A stretch of 47,625 bases of DNA from a virus: positions 1-47,625 of IMG/VR virus record IMGVR_UViG_3300025000_000028. One strand, given 5' to 3'. The notes below the pieces were generated by a model that searched no databases, was not told where the DNA came from, and saw only the letters and a program-made list of their open reading frames with translations. The position numbers were made by a program, and so were the translations under genes. Numbering within the stretch: position 1 is the first letter of the stretch; every line of letters begins with the position of its first letter. Below are positions 4,419-47,474 of this stretch, in pieces.

Positions 4419-5231
4419 TTATTTAATAATAGTCTTTAGGTACGTTACCATCTTTGGGTATATCTCATTGGCATCATTGATCTCTACGAACTTGTGTCCT
4501 GCTGATTCATATTGTTTTCTAGGATTATCAGTCTGTATTAAGAAGGATACTATATCTATCCCTTCTCTCTTGTATTTCTTGAGTAAATCAGGTTGAGTTC
4601 TCTCATTGTATTTATCCCAGCAATGTCCAGATAATACCCAGTTCTTATCCATAAATTTACTTCTCATCTCTGTCACTCAATCCTGTAGAAGCATTATTAT
4701 CTTTCCTCATTCTTTTTTCTTTAATCTAGTGACGGCTGATTGCATACTGGATATCTCCCAAGTTCAATACCAAGCTTCATCTAGGGGGTTTATATTGAAT
4801 CATTCCCTATAATCAGTGATATAGTTCAGTCAGTTTATGGTCTCATAACCTATTTGTCTTGAACATATCTTTTCATATTCCGAGAATGACAGCATCATAA
4901 ATTCTCTAGGGGATATTATCTTCTCCGAGCAGTTGAATATGCGGATATTAATATCACAAACATATTGGAGGATAGATATTATATTCTTTGTCGCTAGGAA
5001 TGACTGTTCTGCTCTAGGTCCATAGAACATACTCTTACTTCAATCTAGGAGTATCTCTACGGAGTAGTTCTTCTCGCTTTTACCAGTCTTTTCGCTGAAT
5101 AGTTTTGCAGATGTCTTAAAGAAAGATAATCTGTTGGTTTCTAATCTTCCTCTTTTCGAGAGAGTTCGTCTCTCGAAAAGGTTATCTTTGAAGATTTTCT
5201 TAATATGGTGCAGTGCCTGTGCTTCTGTCAT
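4419..5231 (-). CDS. vWA-domain protein (CobT/MoxR-partner type), 270 aa
   Basis: One continuous frame from ATG 5229-5231 to TAA 4419-4421 once UGA is Gly; with the standard code it breaks into three pieces. Residues 63-67, DGSKS, match the metal-ion-dependent adhesion site (DxSxS) of von Willebrand factor A domains, preceded by a strand (NYSVEILL). A second strand ends in IIMLLQDGVTEM and a late strand GIDIVSFLIQTD fits the Rossmann-like vWA fold. Note that the Gly of DGSKS is encoded by UGA. It starts 12 bases after the stop of the MoxR-type ATPase gene. In known MoxR-vWA and CobS-CobT pairs the two proteins form a metal-dependent chaperone or insertase, so a joint remodelling complex is inferred. 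The target is unknown. Confidence 0.85.
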
Positions 5232-5243
5232 TGTGATTTTAGA

Positions 5244-6842
5244 TTAAGAGATGAGTTTTTTGAGTTCTTCAAACTTCTGTACTTGTACTTTAAGTTCGTG
5301 ATTTTCTTTGATTGCCTCATCCAGTTGGTTTTCCTTGTATATAAGAGCTTCTTGATATTCCTCTAGCTTTTTCTTATTATCAACAGCACTTTGCATTGTT
5401 CTCTTTATACTTTCAATCTCACTTACTATCTCGTTTGATTTCTGGATAGTTATCTTTAGAACTTTTCCTGCCTCACTCTGTATCTTAGTCTTCTCTATTT
5501 CTGTCTGAATCTTATTTAGGATAACTACCTCGAAGGATTGCTCTATTTTCAGTCAGCTTTGTATAAGCTCTGCCATATAGACTAGGTCACGAGTAGAGCA
5601 GAAGTATTCTATCTGTTCTGATTGATGAAGCCTTCTTAATGCTTGTCAGATTTCTGTAATTCTTAGTATCTGACCACCCATCTTTGGGAATTTCTTACCT
5701 AGTAACTCTCTTTCTTTCTCTTGTGATAGAACATCTATCTGGAGCATAAGGAAACGGGATAGGGTAGCTGGGTTGAAGTCCTTAGTACCTATATACTTGT
5801 CAGAAGGGTTGGCGGTTCAGAATAGTCTTGTATCAGGATGAGGTATGATTACCTCTCAGTCCTTTTCAGCAAGAAGTATATGTCCTAGCTTTCCGTGATT
5901 ACTTTCTGCTAGTGCTTGGATAACGAATAAGACCTCAGGCAATGCTGCATTTATCTCATCTAGGAGAATCCAATGTCAATATCTTAAGGCTGTTACCATT
6001 GGTCAGTCTTGCCAGATAGTCTCTCCTCATATAAGTACATACTTTCCGATGAGCTCTTCCCTACCTGTCTGTCAGTTTAGATTGATACGGACTAGTTCTT
6101 TACCTTTCTTCTTGGCTTCGTGTCTTACTAGGGTAGTCTTACCTGTTCAGGTCTCTCAGATAAGTAGTAGAGGGATATTAGCTTTTACAGCACAATCAAT
6201 TATCTCTAGTTCCTTCTCATTGTTGACAACACCATCTTGTTCTTCCTCCTCCTCTTTCTTTTTCTCTTCTTCCTTTTCCTTCTCACCTTCTTTCTGTTCT
6301 CCTTCACCTTGTTTCCCTTCCTTATTTTCCTCACCTCCTTCTTTCTGTTCTCCTTCTTTTCATTCTCATTGTTCATCTTTTCCTTCTCATTCTTTTTGGT
6401 CTGATTTACTTTCCTCTTTGTTTTTTCATTCAGCCTTATCTTTCTTAGCTTGTTCTTTTGCCTCTCTCTCAGCTTTCATTTCAGCTTGAGTTCTGCGAGT
6501 CTTGATTTCCCTACCTGTCTTGGGGTCTATTCTTGTCTTTGGTCTCTCTTTTTGTTCTCAGTCTTTCTCTTTTCCTTCTTCTTGTCCTTCTTCTTGAGTT
6601 TCTTCATCAAGGATATCTTGAACTTCTTCTGCTAGAGAAGGCGGGGTTGTTAACATCTCTTTTGAATAAGAGAATCATATGCACCCTTTAAGTTGGACAG
6701 TATCTCCGTGAGTAGTAGATATAACTGTTGTTCTTCATTTTGGCATTCAGTCTCTGAACGTTAAGACTCAATATTGTTTGTTTGGTTCAAGGTCTTCTCT
6801 GATATAAACCTCTTCTCCTGCTATATATTTTAATTGTTCCAT
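5244..6842 (-). CDS. MoxR/CobS-type AAA+ ATPase, 532 aa
   Basis: ATG 6840-6842 to TAA 5244-5246. Walker A GETGTGKT at residues 229-236, with Gly229 and Gly232 both encoded by UGA. MoxR/CobS signature RINLNGQTGREELIGKY follows, Walker B WILLDEINAA begins at Trp291, and a sensor-1-like RLFGTANPSDKY and an LSRF arginine element come later. Residues about 85-205 are an extraordinarily charged Glu/Lys-rich low-complexity insert, probably disordered. The C-terminal about 130 residues are a long coiled coil. MoxR ATPases act with vWA proteins to remodel or metallate client proteins; the vWA partner is the next gene. The leader carries a 9-base triple repeat (6881-6907). The client cannot be told from sequence. 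Confidence 0.93.
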
Positions 6843-7634: not shown

Positions 7635-7907
7635 TTATTCACCTAGGTCTTTTTGAGCCATACATATCTCTAACATCTTTCAATCTCTGGAAAGTATACG
7701 GCAGTAATCGAACTTAGAATGGCAAGAGCCTCATTTATAGATTTTTTTATAGATTTTACTGTTCATCTTGCATTCTTCCTTATCTGTTTTAGTTCATCCA
7801 TTCTCTTCTTTGAATTTTGTGGAGTTCGTGAAGTTAGAAAGTACTATAAAGATTGCAAGGATAGCAATGAGTATAAGTAGCTCTATAAGAGTGAATCATT
7901 TTTTCAT
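7635..7907 (-). CDS. Type IV pilin-like protein with class III prepilin signal, 90 aa
   Basis: ATG 7905-7907 to TAA 7635-7637. The N-terminus MKKGFTLIELLILIAILAI is a textbook type IV prepilin/pseudopilin signal: short basic leader, Gly at -1, Phe+1, Glu+5, then a hydrophobic helix. The essential Gly4 is encoded by UGA, so the signal exists only under UGA=Gly. The rest is short, lysine-rich and has four Cys (EECKMN, GGSCHSKFDYC, EICMAQ), which may form a disulphide-bonded minor-pilin head. The start sits two bases past the stop of the SPFH-like gene, so the two are likely coupled. A phage-made (pseudo)pilin could enter the host pilus machine, for example to block pilus-dependent phages; that role is inference. 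Confidence 0.85.
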
Positions 7908-7908
7908 A

Positions 7909-8754
7909 TTATTTAACATTAAGGAATGGTACTGTTGAGTTTGGAATCATTTGGGTAGGCAGTTTACCATCCCATTTCTCTATTCTTTTTAATTCTACAT
8001 ATTCCTGACCTCAGTTCTTCTGGATGGCTTCTGATTGAATCCTGATAGATTCTGCCTCTGCTTGAGCTTTAGCTATGGCAGCTTCCTTTTGTGCAGTTGC
8101 TTGAACTACTAGCTGTCTACCCTCAAACTCTATCCTAGCTAGGTTATTCTTAGCTCTTTGGGCTTCTTGCTCTGCTGTGACTTTAGACTCGATAGCCTGA
8201 TTGAAACTCTCAGAGAAGTTGAAATCCATTATGTTTACAGAGCTTATCTGTATTCATTGCTTCTGAACCTTATCTTTGATGTTCTTAACTATATTGTCTG
8301 AAACAGCTAATCTCTTAGTTATAAGTTCCTCAGCTGTGAACATTGCAGTTGCAGCCTTTATGGAGTCTTGGACACTAGGTTGTATAAGTCTTAGTTCAAT
8401 AGTATCCTCATCTCAGAAGGTTTTCTTAATCTCTCTTACTGCACTAGGGATGATATTGTAGTTCACGGCTACCTTAGCAGTAACATTCTGTAAGTCCTTT
8501 GATGCAGCAGTTGCGATTATCTCTACCTTCTTAGTCTGTACGTTCATTGTAACTCTGTCTGCTAGAGGGTTCTTGAAGTGGAATCAGCTATCGTAGACCT
8601 CATTTCAGATACTACCGAAAGTAACAACAAAGGCTCTTTCTCAAGGGGCAACAGTAAACCAAGAAGAGAAGAACATTATGATAAGGAATAGCCCCCCTAT
8701 GATATAGGAAATAAGTTTCCCTACTTTAAGTCCTCAATTTGAATCAATAAACAT
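7909..8754 (-). CDS. SPFH/prohibitin-family membrane protein, 281 aa
   Basis: ATG 8752-8754 to TAA 7909-7911. An N-terminal anchor (residues about 14-33, LISYIIGGLFLIIMFFSSWF) is followed by a band-7 domain (VAPGERAFVVTFGSIGNEVYDSGFHFKNPLAD) and a long Ala/Glu/Gln-rich coiled coil (EQEAQRAKNN..., AQKEAAIAKAQAEAE) as in prohibitins and stomatins. Such proteins form membrane-bound rings that organise microdomains and regulate proteases. About 281 aa is a normal prohibitin size. Next to a pilin-like gene and a MoxR-vWA pair it suggests remodelling of the host envelope. Family assignment is firm; role is inferred. Confidence 0.92.
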
Positions 8755-8812: not shown

Positions 8813-9274
8813 TTAACTTAGATAGTAACTTCCTTTTGTTTTAGCTTCTCTTTCCATTTGTTCTGCTATCCATATCATCTGTTCATCGTTATTTGGAGTT
8901 GGTATCTTGAGTTCTAACTCTGTATTACAGAAATATATTATCTTATCTAGGTATTCTTTGAATTGCTTAGTATCTAACTTAGTTGTAGATTTTATTATCT
9001 TGAGTTTTCTTCTCTTGTCTTTTGGTAATTTTATTATATCAGTAAGGAATGCCTCTCAGAAGAATTGATGAACCCAGTCTTTAGTTGTACCCAATTCACA
9101 AGCTACTAGTGTATAAATAGCCCATAAGAGACGGTTCTGAGCATAGGTACGAGTCTTGTATATTCTTTCAAAGGTAAGCTCATAAACTCAATTACTGAGT
9201 GATAATACTGTGTCTTTTATATTATCACCTGTAACTGTTCAGTCTTTGATTTCAATTGTTATAACTTTTGTCAT
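8813..9274 (-). CDS. NinB-like recombination protein, 153 aa
   Basis: ATG 9272-9274 to TAA 8813-8815. The central block RTYAQNRLLWAIYTLVACEL, a later HQFFGEAFL and STTKLDTKQFKEYLDKI resemble phage NinB-type proteins, which bind single-stranded DNA and help recombination mediated by Orf/Red-type systems. The first 40 residues form a small beta domain. It belongs to a recombination operon (nuclease, annealing-like protein, NinG-like protein upstream). Moderately confident; a related uncharacterised family is the alternative. Confidence 0.65.
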
Positions 9275-19090: not shown

Positions 19091-21103
19091 TTATTTAATA
19101 AAGGTTGCGTTATATAGTTGTTGGATTTCTAGGTCGGATAATGCTCTGTCATATAACTTAGTATCAAATATATTTCAATTATGATAATTATAATTTCAAG
19201 GAAAATCTCGTCTTCATATATTTAATAATTGTGTAACATTTTTTGCAGGTCAAGTTGTAGCTACACTTCAAATTAAAACTCAATTATGGTATATTTTCAT
19301 ACTTCAATTATCCCAAACAAATACTGCAAACATTACTTTTCAACTTTGAATTACAGCAGGTGTTGGATATAAATCGTATAGAGTTCAACTACTATTCCAT
19401 CATACTGCATAGTACCTACTAATAGAAGCATTAGGATTAAATATTAAACTACGATTAGTTCAATCATCTCGTCAAATAGTAATACTGTCATTTGTAATAG
19501 TGTACCATTGTGCAAAAGTATAATAGTTTGGAGTTGATATATTTACTGTTAAATATTGACTACTAGTAGATACATAATTTAACCCCTTCTCTCCTATTCT
19601 CCTACTAATAGTAGGTCAATTAACTAGAGTCGCATTATTTCCATTCCCACTCAAATCTTTACCTTGTTCATTAAGCCACATAACTAATCCATTTTGTAAT
19701 GATTTAGGTAGGTTGGATTTCCAAGGGAGTAGGTTGGGAGTTGTTGAGGATAGTTGGTATAGGAGTTTAATTTCCTCTGGGGTTTTAGCTTTGTTAAAGA
19801 TTTGTACATCATCTATTTGTCAATTATGGAATTGTCTTGATGTTGTATAATATCTAGCTCATATTTGTAATGGTGTAGTGCCAGTATTAGTGCTAGGAGT
19901 CGTTCAAGATGTAGAAGCAACCTCAACTCAATTAACATATAGTTTCAAACTATTTCAAGTGTGTACTCATACAACGTAATACCAATCGGTAGATGTCGGA
20001 GAATTTGGTCATCAGAAGGCAGTATCAATAGTCGAAGGTACTCAAGTTCAAGTTCATCAATTTATATAAAAATTAAATCAAGTAGTTCAAGCGGTAGCTC
20101 CTTTATGATAGGCTAGATAATATGCTCTTTCAGATACATTTCAGTCTTTCGCTACAAGCACAGCATCTTCATAAGTGGCTATTCAAGATGTATCTACAGT
20201 ACACCAACAAGCGATTGTATATCAACTAGCTAATTGGAATACAGAAGAACTACCACAATCGATATATTGAGAAGAATTTTTTACAAAATTATAGGCATTA
20301 TCAGCTATCCCAAATCTATCTGTTGTAAGAGTAGCACCTGTAACAGTACCATTATTTCCTCCTATTACATCTTGTGCATCTCATTGGAAATCATATTGTG
20401 CTACAAGTCCGTCAAACAAAGACCCATATCATTGTCAAGAGAGTTGTCTTAGTCCTTCTTGGTAGAGAGTTTGGATTTCTTGGGAGGAATATATATGCAT
20501 ATCATATCTTATAGTCTGTAATTTTCAATTGAAATAATTACCTCATCAAGCATATCAAATGTTAAATTCATTAGTTCATCAACTTCAATTTCAAGTAACA
20601 GTTCATTGAGCAACCTGTATTCAATTAACAAAAAGAGTTGATACTGAATTAGAACGAGTTATAACTAAATGATACCATACTCAAGCAGAAAAACTATGAT
20701 TATAAGATGGTGCGAATGCTACTCAAGATTTTCATTTTCAGTAATATAATATAGGAGTTCATCAACTATTTGATAACAATACCTCAAAGTCTGTAGAAGT
20801 TGTAGCCTCTTTAATTAATGTAATATAATTATATGTTCAAGAACTTGGAAGTGACGCGGCATTGAACCATAAACTCATACTAGAATCTCAAGTAGAAGTT
20901 AATCACATATTTGAGCCTATTGTAACAAAACTACTGCTTCCATTAAAAACCCCACACTGACTCTGCATTCATCTATCGGTAGAATCAAATGTAAGGTTGG
21001 TTGCGGTTCCATCATTTCAACTTCAACTAGAATCGAGACTCGAACCATCAAGTAACCATTCACCAACAAGTCATTGTCTATTGATCGTTTTTACTTTTGC
21101 CAT
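19091..21103 (-). CDS. LamG/concanavalin-like receptor-binding protein, 670 aa
   Basis: ATG 21101-21103 to TAA 19091-19093. Three LamG-like beta-sandwich modules can be followed, for example DNAYNFVKNSSQYIDCGSSS, WYYVVGVHTGNSLKLYVNG, RQFHNGQIDDVQIFNKAKT, and a last one ending ALSDLEIQQLY. Such domains bind surface glycans and commonly form tail spikes or fibres. I count about 56 UGA glycines against about two dozen GGN, by far the highest UGA load in the genome. The start follows 15 bases after the stop of the tail-fibre gene. Likely determinant of host adsorption. Confidence 0.85.
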
Positions 21104-24610: not shown

Positions 24611-25624
24611 CTAAGAACCTAATCAAGTAGAGAACTTAATCCATCTAGCACCAGTAGTAGCGATACCATAAGCAGCCCTAGAAGCATAGTTCCAGTTCTC
24701 AGAAGAGAAGTCTTCACCATTGTTTCCGTCCATTGGAGTCTTAAGGTAAGGAGCTTCTGACATACCTAGATGCATCTGAGTATCTTTAGTAGATGCAATT
24801 CACCAGTATTTTCTTTTAGTAGTGTCGACTGCACCAGTTGCAGTAGTAGCTAATAGAGGAAGTTTTACTTTCTTCATTGTATTAGCATATACATTGAATG
24901 TTCCAGCATTTGCAGAAGAAATATCAGCGGTAGCTTTAAGTAGTTCATCTATCTGGTTGTTTGTATCTTCGTCATCAGTACAGATAATAGTATTGAAGTC
25001 CATAGATACCTTTTCTCCTAGGTTGTTGTAAGTTTCTTCAACAGTTAATCTCTTAGCAGCAGCTAGAGAACCTTTAGAGAATTGAGGATTACCTGGAACG
25101 ATGTTGTTGTAAGTAGTGGCTGAACCAGTAAGAGTATGTGCAGTATAGAATAGTGCAAATCCGTCTCAAACAGTAACATCAACTACATCACCTGAATTGT
25201 CAGTATAAGAAGTAGCGAATCCGAATGTGAACCTGTGGTTAAGGTCAAGCTCGATTTTAGAAGGACAAACTTCTGATAGGTCAGTAAGTCTTCTGATTAC
25301 CTCTGGGTATTTATTCTGTTTTCTTTCTTCAACAGTGATACCAACATCAAGACCGATACGTTTAATTTGCATCTGTTTCTCATATCCATATTGGATACGA
25401 GCTTGTTCTGCGTTAGCACCTTCATCCTTAGTAGTAGCATAAAGATTTCTGTCTGGTAGTTCAGAAAAATGTCTGAATTGTCCAGTTCATTCTGGAATTG
25501 CCATTTCATTGATAAGTCCTGATTTCCTTAGAACTTGAGGAACTTGCTCTAACCCTTTTTCAAACATTCTTGTAACCAAGTCTGTAAGCTGAGGAAGAGT
25601 GGCAGTATTTAATTGTGGAGCCAT
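24611..25624 (-). CDS. Major capsid protein, 337 aa
   Basis: ATG 25622-25624 to TAG 24611-24613. Location (scaffold, portal and terminase upstream), size and pattern fit an HK97-fold capsid protein: N-terminal helix LPQLTDLVTRMFEKGLEQVP, E-loop-like AIPEGTGQFRHFSELPDRNL, P-domain YEKQMQIKRIGLDVGITVEE, later SMDFNTIICTDDEDTNNQI. Only four UGA codons are used and most glycines are GGT/GGA, unlike other genes; highly expressed genes may avoid UGA. Confidence 0.85.
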
Positions 25625-43746: not shown

Positions 43747-44088
43747 CTATTCTGGATTATGCTTATTCCATTCTTTCCTGCTTATCTGGTTGTTGAGTCT
43801 CTTTACTCTTATATTAGTCTTAGCTAGGTCTACATCACAATCATCAAAGCATATATCGACATTCTCACTTTTTTCTTTGTGCAAGATGAAGTCTGGCTCT
43901 AGTCATAATTTATCTGCCCAGTGCCTAGCATAATCAACTCATCCTCAGCTCCACACACACATTGTATGTCATTGTGCTTTAAACCAGTTATATATAGATA
44001 TAGTTTCATAGTTGGGAGTATCAATACTCAATCAGTTTGCTACACTCGGTATAATCAATGTGTCATCTATGTCAAATGCTATTATCAT
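43747..44088 (-). CDS. HAD-superfamily phosphatase, 113 aa
   Basis: ATG 44086-44088 to TAG 43747-43749. Motif I FDIDDTL (Asp6, Asp8), motif II VWSGGG (Ser), motif IV CFDDCDVD near residue 85-92; compact cap-less form. Gly residues of the motif II loop come from UGA. Short phage HADs include polynucleotide- and nucleotide-phosphatases, so nucleotide or DNA-end processing is plausible. Confidence 0.85.
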
Positions 44089-44856: not shown

Positions 44857-45573
44857 TTATTTTAGGTTAAGAAGTATTTCGTTTTCTCTCTTTGAGTTGT
44901 CTCTTATTATGGTTCACCATTTCTTCTTTAGGATATTTATTGCTATCTGTTCCCTGTTCTTATCTCGGTAATCTACGCATCATCATTTGTTGGTGTAGTG
45001 TATAGCCTCAACTGCTACCGAGTTGTTTCTCAGCACTCACCCATAGGTAAATATATGCTGGAGGCTGTAATCGTAGTCCTCCTTTAGTGTCAATGTCTCA
45101 TCGAATCTTAGCTCTGTGTTTATTATTCCTGCGAATGTTCATATAATGAAGCATTTAGTGTTGTACTTAGAGGACATAAAGAAATTGTTTGCTATTGGAT
45201 ATATTCACCACATCTTCAATCCTTGCTTCTCACACTTGTCGAACTCTCTTATTATGAGTTTGGTTATCTGCTCTTTATTTAGCTTCTGGAGCTTGTCTTT
45301 GAATAAGAACTTTACTGACTTTATGTCATCATCAAGCATAAGAACCTTATCTCCTTCTTGGAAGTAGTCTAGGATTGCGTTCCTTGTTGGGGTTATTCCT
45401 ATAGCATCTGTTCAGACTACTGTTGCATCGGGACAATGCTCTTGGTAGGTATAGGTCTCTTCTTGTCTTACGAACACATAGACATCGAATATCTCGGTAT
45501 CTATAAGCTTTAGTGTTAGGCTGGCAATTTGTTCTGCTCTCTTGTATGAGGGGATTGCTATTTTTATTTTCAT
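44857..45573 (-). CDS. GT-A-type glycosyltransferase, 238 aa
   Basis: ATG 45571-45573 to TAA 44857-44859, overlapping the radical SAM gene's stop. Opens KIKIAIPSYKRAEQIASLTL (nucleotide-sugar binding), has the metal-binding LMLDDDI (Asp81-83), later TFAGIINTELRFDETLTLKE and DYDYSLQHI, as in compact GT-A enzymes including those linked to modified DNA bases in phages. Three or more UGA glycines lie in loop positions. Likely target is a modified base, given the neighbours, or a surface glycan. Confidence 0.8.
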
Positions 45574-46823
45574 TTGTAAAGATAGATTATGTTTCAGTTC
45601 TTGTCTAATCCTTTAGGCTCTAGTAGTCCTTCAAATAACTTATAGGGACTATTACCTGACTTGGGGTTGTTCCAGTATTCCTTTATCTTATCGTTTATGC
45701 TTAGGTCTCAGAATCTTGCTCTTGCTTTTCAGCTTCCTTGGTTAAGTCAATCAGCAGTTCAGAACTTTACGTTCTTAAGTATGCTTACCTTCTCTAGGTC
45801 ATCCCAAGTAACATATCCTTTTATCTTGGCTAGTTGGATAGCTGGTAGGTATTGACCTTTATGTACTTGAGTGAATACTCAAGTGTTAGGTAGTCCACAG
45901 CAGGAGTTGGAGAAGTTAACTTCCTTATGTTTTGGGTCTGAGCTAGCTAGTAGGATGTTGTTCTTGTCGCATAGCTTCTTCAAATCATCCATATAAGGCT
46001 GGGTAAACTTCTTGCTGAGCCTCATATAACCTGTGGTATTACTGTGTTCTCTGTACATCTGGAATATATCGAATCAGCATTCATCACTTATACCTTGGAA
46101 TTTCTTGCGTATTTCAGGGGTACTTCTCGCCTCAACACAGAAGAACTCAGTTGAGCAGGCTTTTACTCCTGCCTGACCTGCTGCGTTGATAGTGTCCTTT
46201 ATAGTCCTGTCTGTTACCCCTATTATATAAGGTCTTAACCTAAGGACTGTCCAGACTCAAACATCAGATAAGGTCTTAAGCACTTCCATTCTTCTCTGTG
46301 GAGTTGGTACTCAGGCTTCGATTCTCTTCGCCACCTGCTCATCATAAGTTATGATAGAGGACATATAAGCGAACCTGTCTTTACCTCTCTCAAATTCTTT
46401 CAGGTATCTGTCATCCCTAAGAATGAGGTCTGACTTGCTGGAGAATCGTACTGGGTACTCTATATCGTTGAAGAACTGCATCATCTCTAATCCAGCTCCC
46501 CCATCTTCCTCAATAGGACACATAGGGTCTGATAATCATCCCCATTGCAGAACATACTTTCATTTGATATAGTCGGTAAATTGTCATCCGTACTTATCAG
46601 GCTCAGAGAACATTCTCTTTACCTTATCTACATTTATCTTCTTAACTTGTTTCTTTACATAGTTCTCTCTAGGTTTACCTATGCTTCTCTGGAATGTGGA
46701 AAAACAATAAAGACACCCATAACCACAGTTGGAATAGGTGTCGAATGTCATAGGCATTGAGCAGTCAAGATACTCTCAAGACCACCTAGGGCTTCAATAT
46801 TTCTCAGGTAGGAATGTGAACAT
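45564..46823 (-). CDS. Radical SAM enzyme, 419 aa
   Basis: ATG 46821-46823 to TAA 45564-45566. The [4Fe-4S] motif is SNCGYGCLYCFS (Cys33-x3-Cys37-x2-Cys40). SAM-domain features follow (QWGGLSDPMCPIEEDGGAGL; PVRFSSKSDLILRD; AYMSSIITYDEQ; RRMEVLKTLSDVGVWTVLRL). This resembles SplB/DNA-repair-lyase-type enzymes. Late cysteines (NSCCGLP) may bind a further cluster. Start overlaps the ParB-like gene's stop. A role in base modification is inferred from neighbours. Confidence 0.88.
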
Positions 46824-47474
46824 TTAGATTCTTTTAACCATCTCAAGTAAAAGTTGTGTATTAGCTTCCCATTTCTTTGTAGTTGCGAATATAGGGTAGA
46901 GAACTTCATACTCTTCATTTGAACAGAAGAAGGTGATTGGTTTCTTTTGGTTTTGCCCACCCATTATATCAGTTGGGATTGATTGTCTTTCCATTGCCTC
47001 ATCTATATCATCTATATCAAGGTCAAAGCTGTCCATAATATCAGTAGCCTCTTGGGTTGATTTCTTTGTCTCCATAAGTATTCACAGGTTGGCTAGCTCC
47101 ATATCAGTGAATCATAGGGTCTTGATATCGAATAGCTTAGATAGTTCTTTTAGCTCGCTAGATAGATTGGAGAAATCGTATGGTGACTCATTCATCTTGT
47201 TATCTGCGATTCTCAAAGCTCTTATATCTTCATCAGGGAATCATTCAAGGACGATAACCTCTACTTCTTTCCATCATAGGTATTTGATTGCCTCGAATCT
47301 TCCGTGACCTATAACGATAGTATTATTGCTGTCCACACATATTGGTTGGATATAGCCGAATTGTGTAATACTTCAAGCAATCTGCTCAATCTGTTCATCA
47401 GAGTGTTTTTTGATATTTTTTCCATAGGGGATTATTTCTGAAACTTTAAGTTTCTTTTCTATTTGTTTTCACAT
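46824..47474 (-). CDS. ParB/Srx-domain protein, 216 aa
   Basis: ATG 47472-47474 to TAA 46824-46826. ParB N-terminal domain: KVSEIIPYGKNIKKHSDEQI, then FGYIQPICVDSNNTIVIGHG with GHGR at 56-59, and FPDEDIRALRIADNKMNESP. That last block is typical of ParB domains attached to DNA-modification enzymes rather than partition. The C-terminal part is acidic (DLDIDDIDEAMERQ) and then FFCSNEEYEVLYPIFATTKK. First gene of a three-gene overlapping set with radical SAM and glycosyltransferase. Confidence 0.85.

Follow-up and report, generated by a model that had tools for sequence, protein, structure and literature searches.

The virus DNA analyzed here (positions 1 to 47,625 of IMG/VR virus record IMGVR_UViG_3300025000_000028; "the window" means this whole stretch of 47,625 nucleotides) encodes a small protein with a canonical prepilin signal directly after a gene for an SPFH protein. 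The pairing of a small prepilin-signal gene with SPFH recurs across many uncultivated phages that are not related to one another, suggesting a shared, putative tool with which phages alter the surface of the host cell. A preliminary description of this DNA had noticed the prepilin signal but overlooked the SPFH partner, which is the main feature. SPFH genes are common in phages, and the recurring small partner provides a concrete handle on their role in infection.

The small gene and its SPFH neighbor

The window is a linear virus record, possibly a fragment, in which terminase and portal genes are present. The small gene (7907-7635, minus strand) encodes 90 aa in genetic code 25. Its product begins MKKG|FTLIELL, i.e., MKK-G(TGA)-FTLIELLILIAILAIFIVL, and ends in a brief hydrophilic stretch containing four Cys. 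The protein scores 24.5 bits against Pfam N_methyl PF07963 (curated cut-off 21.2) and 23.0 bits against TIGR02532 (curated cut-off 16.3). All elements of a class III signal were identified: a basic leader, Gly-1, Phe at +1, Glu+5, and a hydrophobic helix. The predicted cleavage glycine, Gly-1 (residue 4), is a TGA codon (7898-7896, minus). Phe+1 is residue 5, the first of the hydrophobic helix (residues 5-27; 7827..7895, minus), and Glu+5 is residue 9 (GAG; 7883-7881, minus). The short, predicted exterior part (residues 30-90; 7638..7820, minus) contains Cys46, Cys62, Cys69, and Cys82. The prepilin-signal ORF is real, well beyond chance. Three claims of the preliminary description are thus borne out: that a phage gene carries a canonical prepilin signal, that UGA encodes its Gly-1, and that a small Cys-containing part lies beyond the helix. 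NCBIfam equivalogs of specific pilins (ComGC, GspG, GspH, ComGF, and others) all scored far under their cut-offs (for ComGF, 21 versus 80 bits), and a six-frame scan of the window revealed no second convincing prepilin signal.

The 22 bases 5' of the start at 7907 resemble those at other gene starts of this phage (98th percentile of all ATGs). A longer, 111-aa ORF from 7970 was dropped, given that its 5' context reaches only the 45th percentile, and MKKG is therefore the likely start. Across the window, no G-rich stretch of the Shine-Dalgarno kind precedes the gene starts; their context is A/T-rich, with T at -1 and A around -13 to -12 and -8 to -3.

The ATG of the small ORF lies one base past the stop of the SPFH/band-7 (HflC/prohibitin-like) gene (7909..8754, minus; PF01145 1.8e-32, phrog_200 7e-55). 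With 113 bits against PF01145 Band_7 (cut-off 23.6) and an N-terminal membrane segment, its product clearly belongs with the phage SPFH/band-7 proteins (phrog_200; the "prohibitin family" genes of isolates). Its score against the HflC equivalog TIGR01932 is below cut-off (41.6 versus 134.4 bits). A NinB/Orf-like recombination mediator (8813..9274, minus; phrog_72 2e-19) marks the recombination region that holds the pair. None of the PADLOC anti-phage defense models matched the small protein, its counterpart in a related phage, or the SPFH protein. Also near the unit are a MoxR/CbbQ-type AAA ATPase with a long Glu/Lys-rich stretch (5244-6842, minus) and, after it, a weak CobT-like VWA protein (4419-5231, minus), together a phage chelatase-like ATPase/VWA pair.

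A related contig encodes a terminase that is 95% identical and an SPFH protein that is 91% identical to those of the window, with a neighboring structural gene within 91-95%. It has the same gene order, with a small ORF at the same place and TGA at -1. The two small proteins share only 49% identity, yet both have the signal and all four Cys. Elsewhere in the region, small genes have diverged to a similar extent (37-39%), so the fast change is not peculiar to the small prepilin gene.

UGA as glycine and the likely host

UGA is the commonest Gly codon in the window (562 of 1042, or 54%) and is present in 65 of its 68 ORFs (absent from three). Genetic code 25 places the host of the window's phage in the Absconditabacteria or Gracilibacteria; this assignment by code applies to the window only, and the wider SPFH-linked set also includes code-11 contigs. 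Phages of Absconditabacteria and Gracilibacteria have been described (PMC10746230). The only tRNA found in the window is for Met, so decoding of UGA must depend on the host.

When genome contigs were scanned for the prepilin motif in its TGA form, 49 stretches emerged, about half of them SR1/Gracilibacteria pilins with UGA at Gly-1; the motif is thus present in host genomes as well as in related phages. In 14 of these genomes, which were picked via the TGA form, the motif has TGA at 17 places and GGN at 6. UGA at -1 is therefore expected and ordinary, because it is common in the window and occurs at the same site of SR1/Gracilibacteria pilins. On these grounds we rejected the proposal of the preliminary description that UGA at this site acts as a special gate for processing. 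Its expectation that plausible hosts could supply the prepilin peptidase fared better: PF01478 exceeded the cut-off in 9 of 16 candidate host genomes, nearly all of them SR1/Gracilibacteria.

Searches for traces of these phages in genomes provide weak evidence. The L105 head was not found in 380 Patescibacteria genomes searched for prophage or host copies. The product of 24611-25624, a probable capsid protein based on position and sequence, gave one weak partial match in 353 genomes of the class of the SR1 reference.

Recurrence beside viral SPFH genes

A prepilin motif search of viral contigs returned 18 contigs (16 distinct); in five of these, an SPFH gene on the same strand lies upstream at a distance of 0.1-0.4 kb. 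A search of viral contigs with an SPFH alignment recovered at least 190 relatives; the count given here rests on 80 of these, representing 73 distinct loci. Of the 475 ORFs that begin no more than 1.3 kb 3' of SPFH, 14 carry the strict prepilin motif, which was fixed after a first look at the data; all 4785 remaining ORFs of these loci lack it (p 2e-15). Because the SPFH alignment included genes from pilin-carrying contigs, we also left out the four contigs already known; the 10 newly found contigs alone give p 3e-11. We excluded one motif match (L147) as fortuitous, and another member (L139, 32 aa) is weak. The recombination-gene neighbors of the unit are present in L154 and L103 too.

A prepilin ORF is missing from the majority of the viral SPFH loci, 59 of the 73. 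When nine SPFH loci of isolate phages were scanned with the motif, none had a prepilin-signal gene after SPFH, unlike the window, and inspection of chromosomal SPFH loci of Patescibacteria revealed no such gene. Given the viral and isolate-phage loci that lack it, SPFH works without the small protein. The prepilin trait is dispersed over the SPFH tree, with 15 changes of which no fewer than 8 are forced, and the gene is therefore frequently gained or lost, as are accessory host-interaction genes. Searches of viral contigs with the heads retrieved, for one family, nothing beyond its three known members and, for the window head, a single relative. A tblastn search of INPHARED with the relatives' proteins, the heads, and a generic prepilin signal found nothing meaningful, these queries being too short to inform.

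Other small genes were observed at these loci. A second recurrent small neighbor (67-92 aa, coiled-coil-like, "MFG[NK]TIRxxVLxKVNxMI...") accompanies the SPFH/small-protein unit; it lies just 3' of SPFH in L116, L117, and L138 and 3' of the prepilin ORF in L002. In L123, at +163 from SPFH, there is a HAD-like small protein that is, by eye, about half identical to the product of 43747-44088 (minus) in the window. L011, L018, and L019 encode another, Cys-rich family of phage proteins with a prepilin signal (137-169 aa, "DTVY[VI]xKHDTV"), and no SPFH gene was detected near it.

Heads, anchors, and a possible role at the cell envelope

The reading that we favor, and to which we give a little less than an even chance, is that the small envelope protein and the SPFH protein form a unit that uses the host prepilin pathway and acts against pili or incoming phage. 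The two genes would make up a two-gene unit within the recombination, and probably early, region. The small protein would enter the host prepilin pathway as a single-pass inner-membrane helix, from which the MKKG leader could be removed by the host peptidase, with the short disulfide-bonded end facing outward. The SPFH protein, which is predicted to build a ring or microdomain in the membrane, may be its physical partner and organize or protect it. Together they would alter the envelope of the infected cell, most likely through interference with type IV pilus subunits or assembly, or through superinfection exclusion; building of a pilus by the phage is a less likely outcome.

The 17 SPFH-linked proteins have 28-96 mature residues, and their heads fall into several unrelated families. 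The number of Cys beyond mature residue 25 is even in all 17 (0, 2, 4, or 6), a pattern that fits disulfide bonds located outside the cytoplasm. Ordinary transmembrane (TM) anchors also carry heads of two of the families. In L117, the L116/L101 head (about 80% identical) sits on an ordinary TM segment that lacks Gly-1 and Glu+5, and the SPFH gene of L117 is the sister of that of L116 on the SPFH tree. The head of L148, a relative of the L103 and L005 heads (shuffle z 4.3 and 6.7), is likewise on an ordinary TM segment without these residues. Prepilin processing is therefore not essential for all members, and the exchange of anchors suggests that the head can act without the pilin machinery.

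These exchanges speak for an alternative in which the prepilin stretch is a mere membrane anchor and the Cys-rich head acts at the surface, for example by blocking a second phage, with the pilus machinery irrelevant save for optional removal of the leader. It is also favored by the better of two structure models, that of L116 (pLDDT 75), in which a loose linker (29-34) sets off a TM helix from six short strands forming a small, separate beta domain. We nonetheless consider it rather unlikely. Four almost headless members (L123, L132, L138, and L139) have at most 20 residues past the helix, which suggests that the prepilin helix itself has a role. Moreover, GFTLIELL is near-perfect in many lineages, beyond the needs of an anchor, although the search motif partly selected for this consensus. 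Together, the consensus and the near-headless members suggest an important helix that engages the host pilin machinery.

The preliminary description took the protein for a genuine pseudopilin able to join, cap, or divert the pili of the host, which now appears improbable. The window protein does share the leader, Gly-1, Phe+1, Glu+5, and helix of the type IV pilin/pseudopilin N-terminal domain (PF07963, TIGR02532), so that the class III signal is complete, and candidate hosts encode the peptidase. The closest solved protein by sequence, mainly across the signal, is the similarly short geopilin PilA-N; this pilin chain of ~61 residues does assemble, and a tiny or absent head is therefore no bar to assembly. 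However, a pilin-type head did not appear in either model. That of the window protein (pLDDT 65, pTM 0.35) has a helix at 7-36 plus small elements, and structure-library searches with the models returned no pilin match and none below E 0.1. This evidence is weak because the alignments hold two or three sequences only (two for the window protein). The pseudopilin idea is further weakened by the swap to TM anchors in sister loci and by linkage to an SPFH gene instead of pilus genes. Relatives without Gly-1/Glu+5 and a predicted structure without a pilin head are outcomes that the preliminary description had itself named as counting against its proposal.

Short phage proteins in PHROGs (13280, 11263, 10597, 27437, and 3433, the last annotated "pilin") match the window protein over the signal and little past it, and SPFH linkage and Cys heads are absent from their annotation. 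Such prepilin-signal families, several of them without assigned function, would fit a host-derived passenger gene that has no role in infection and lies beside SPFH by chance, but this is very improbable given the repeated SPFH linkage in divergent phages, the conservation of signal and Cys at 49% identity, and the one-base gap to SPFH.

The proposed interference by an SPFH-associated envelope protein has parallels in phage proteins that block the type IV pilus and exclude rivals: PfsE of Pf4 binds PilC, and Aqs1 and D3112 Gp05 target PilB (PMC8764522, PMC11436027). These too are small and phage encoded, and PfsE is at the inner membrane; the similar outcome is, for the window protein, only proposed. 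The latter differs in its prepilin-type signal, exterior Cys part, and SPFH neighbor. In the papers searched we found no pilus-blocking phage protein described with this architecture, no paper joining phage-encoded SPFH with superinfection, and none describing prepilin-signal genes in phage genomes. More broadly, it is possible, if still speculative, that the pair represents an undescribed module in which an SPFH ring and a fast-changing, disulfide-headed prepilin-pathway peptide, with interchangeable anchor and head, remodel the envelope or close it to rivals in many phages, including those of UGA-recoded hosts. Entry of the peptide into the pilin pathway, if it takes place, would mean that phages have made a surface-assembly route serve exclusion or takeover. 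This would bear on Absconditabacteria, Gracilibacteria, and other bacteria with a presumed pilus-based attachment to partner cells.

Two further features of the window were observed. A large protein (19091-21103, minus) contains repeated LamG/concanavalin-like segments, as judged by eye; lectin-like genes have been reported in Patescibacteria phages (PMC12911398). In addition, a ParB-N-like protein adjoins a radical-SAM protein (45564-47474, minus).
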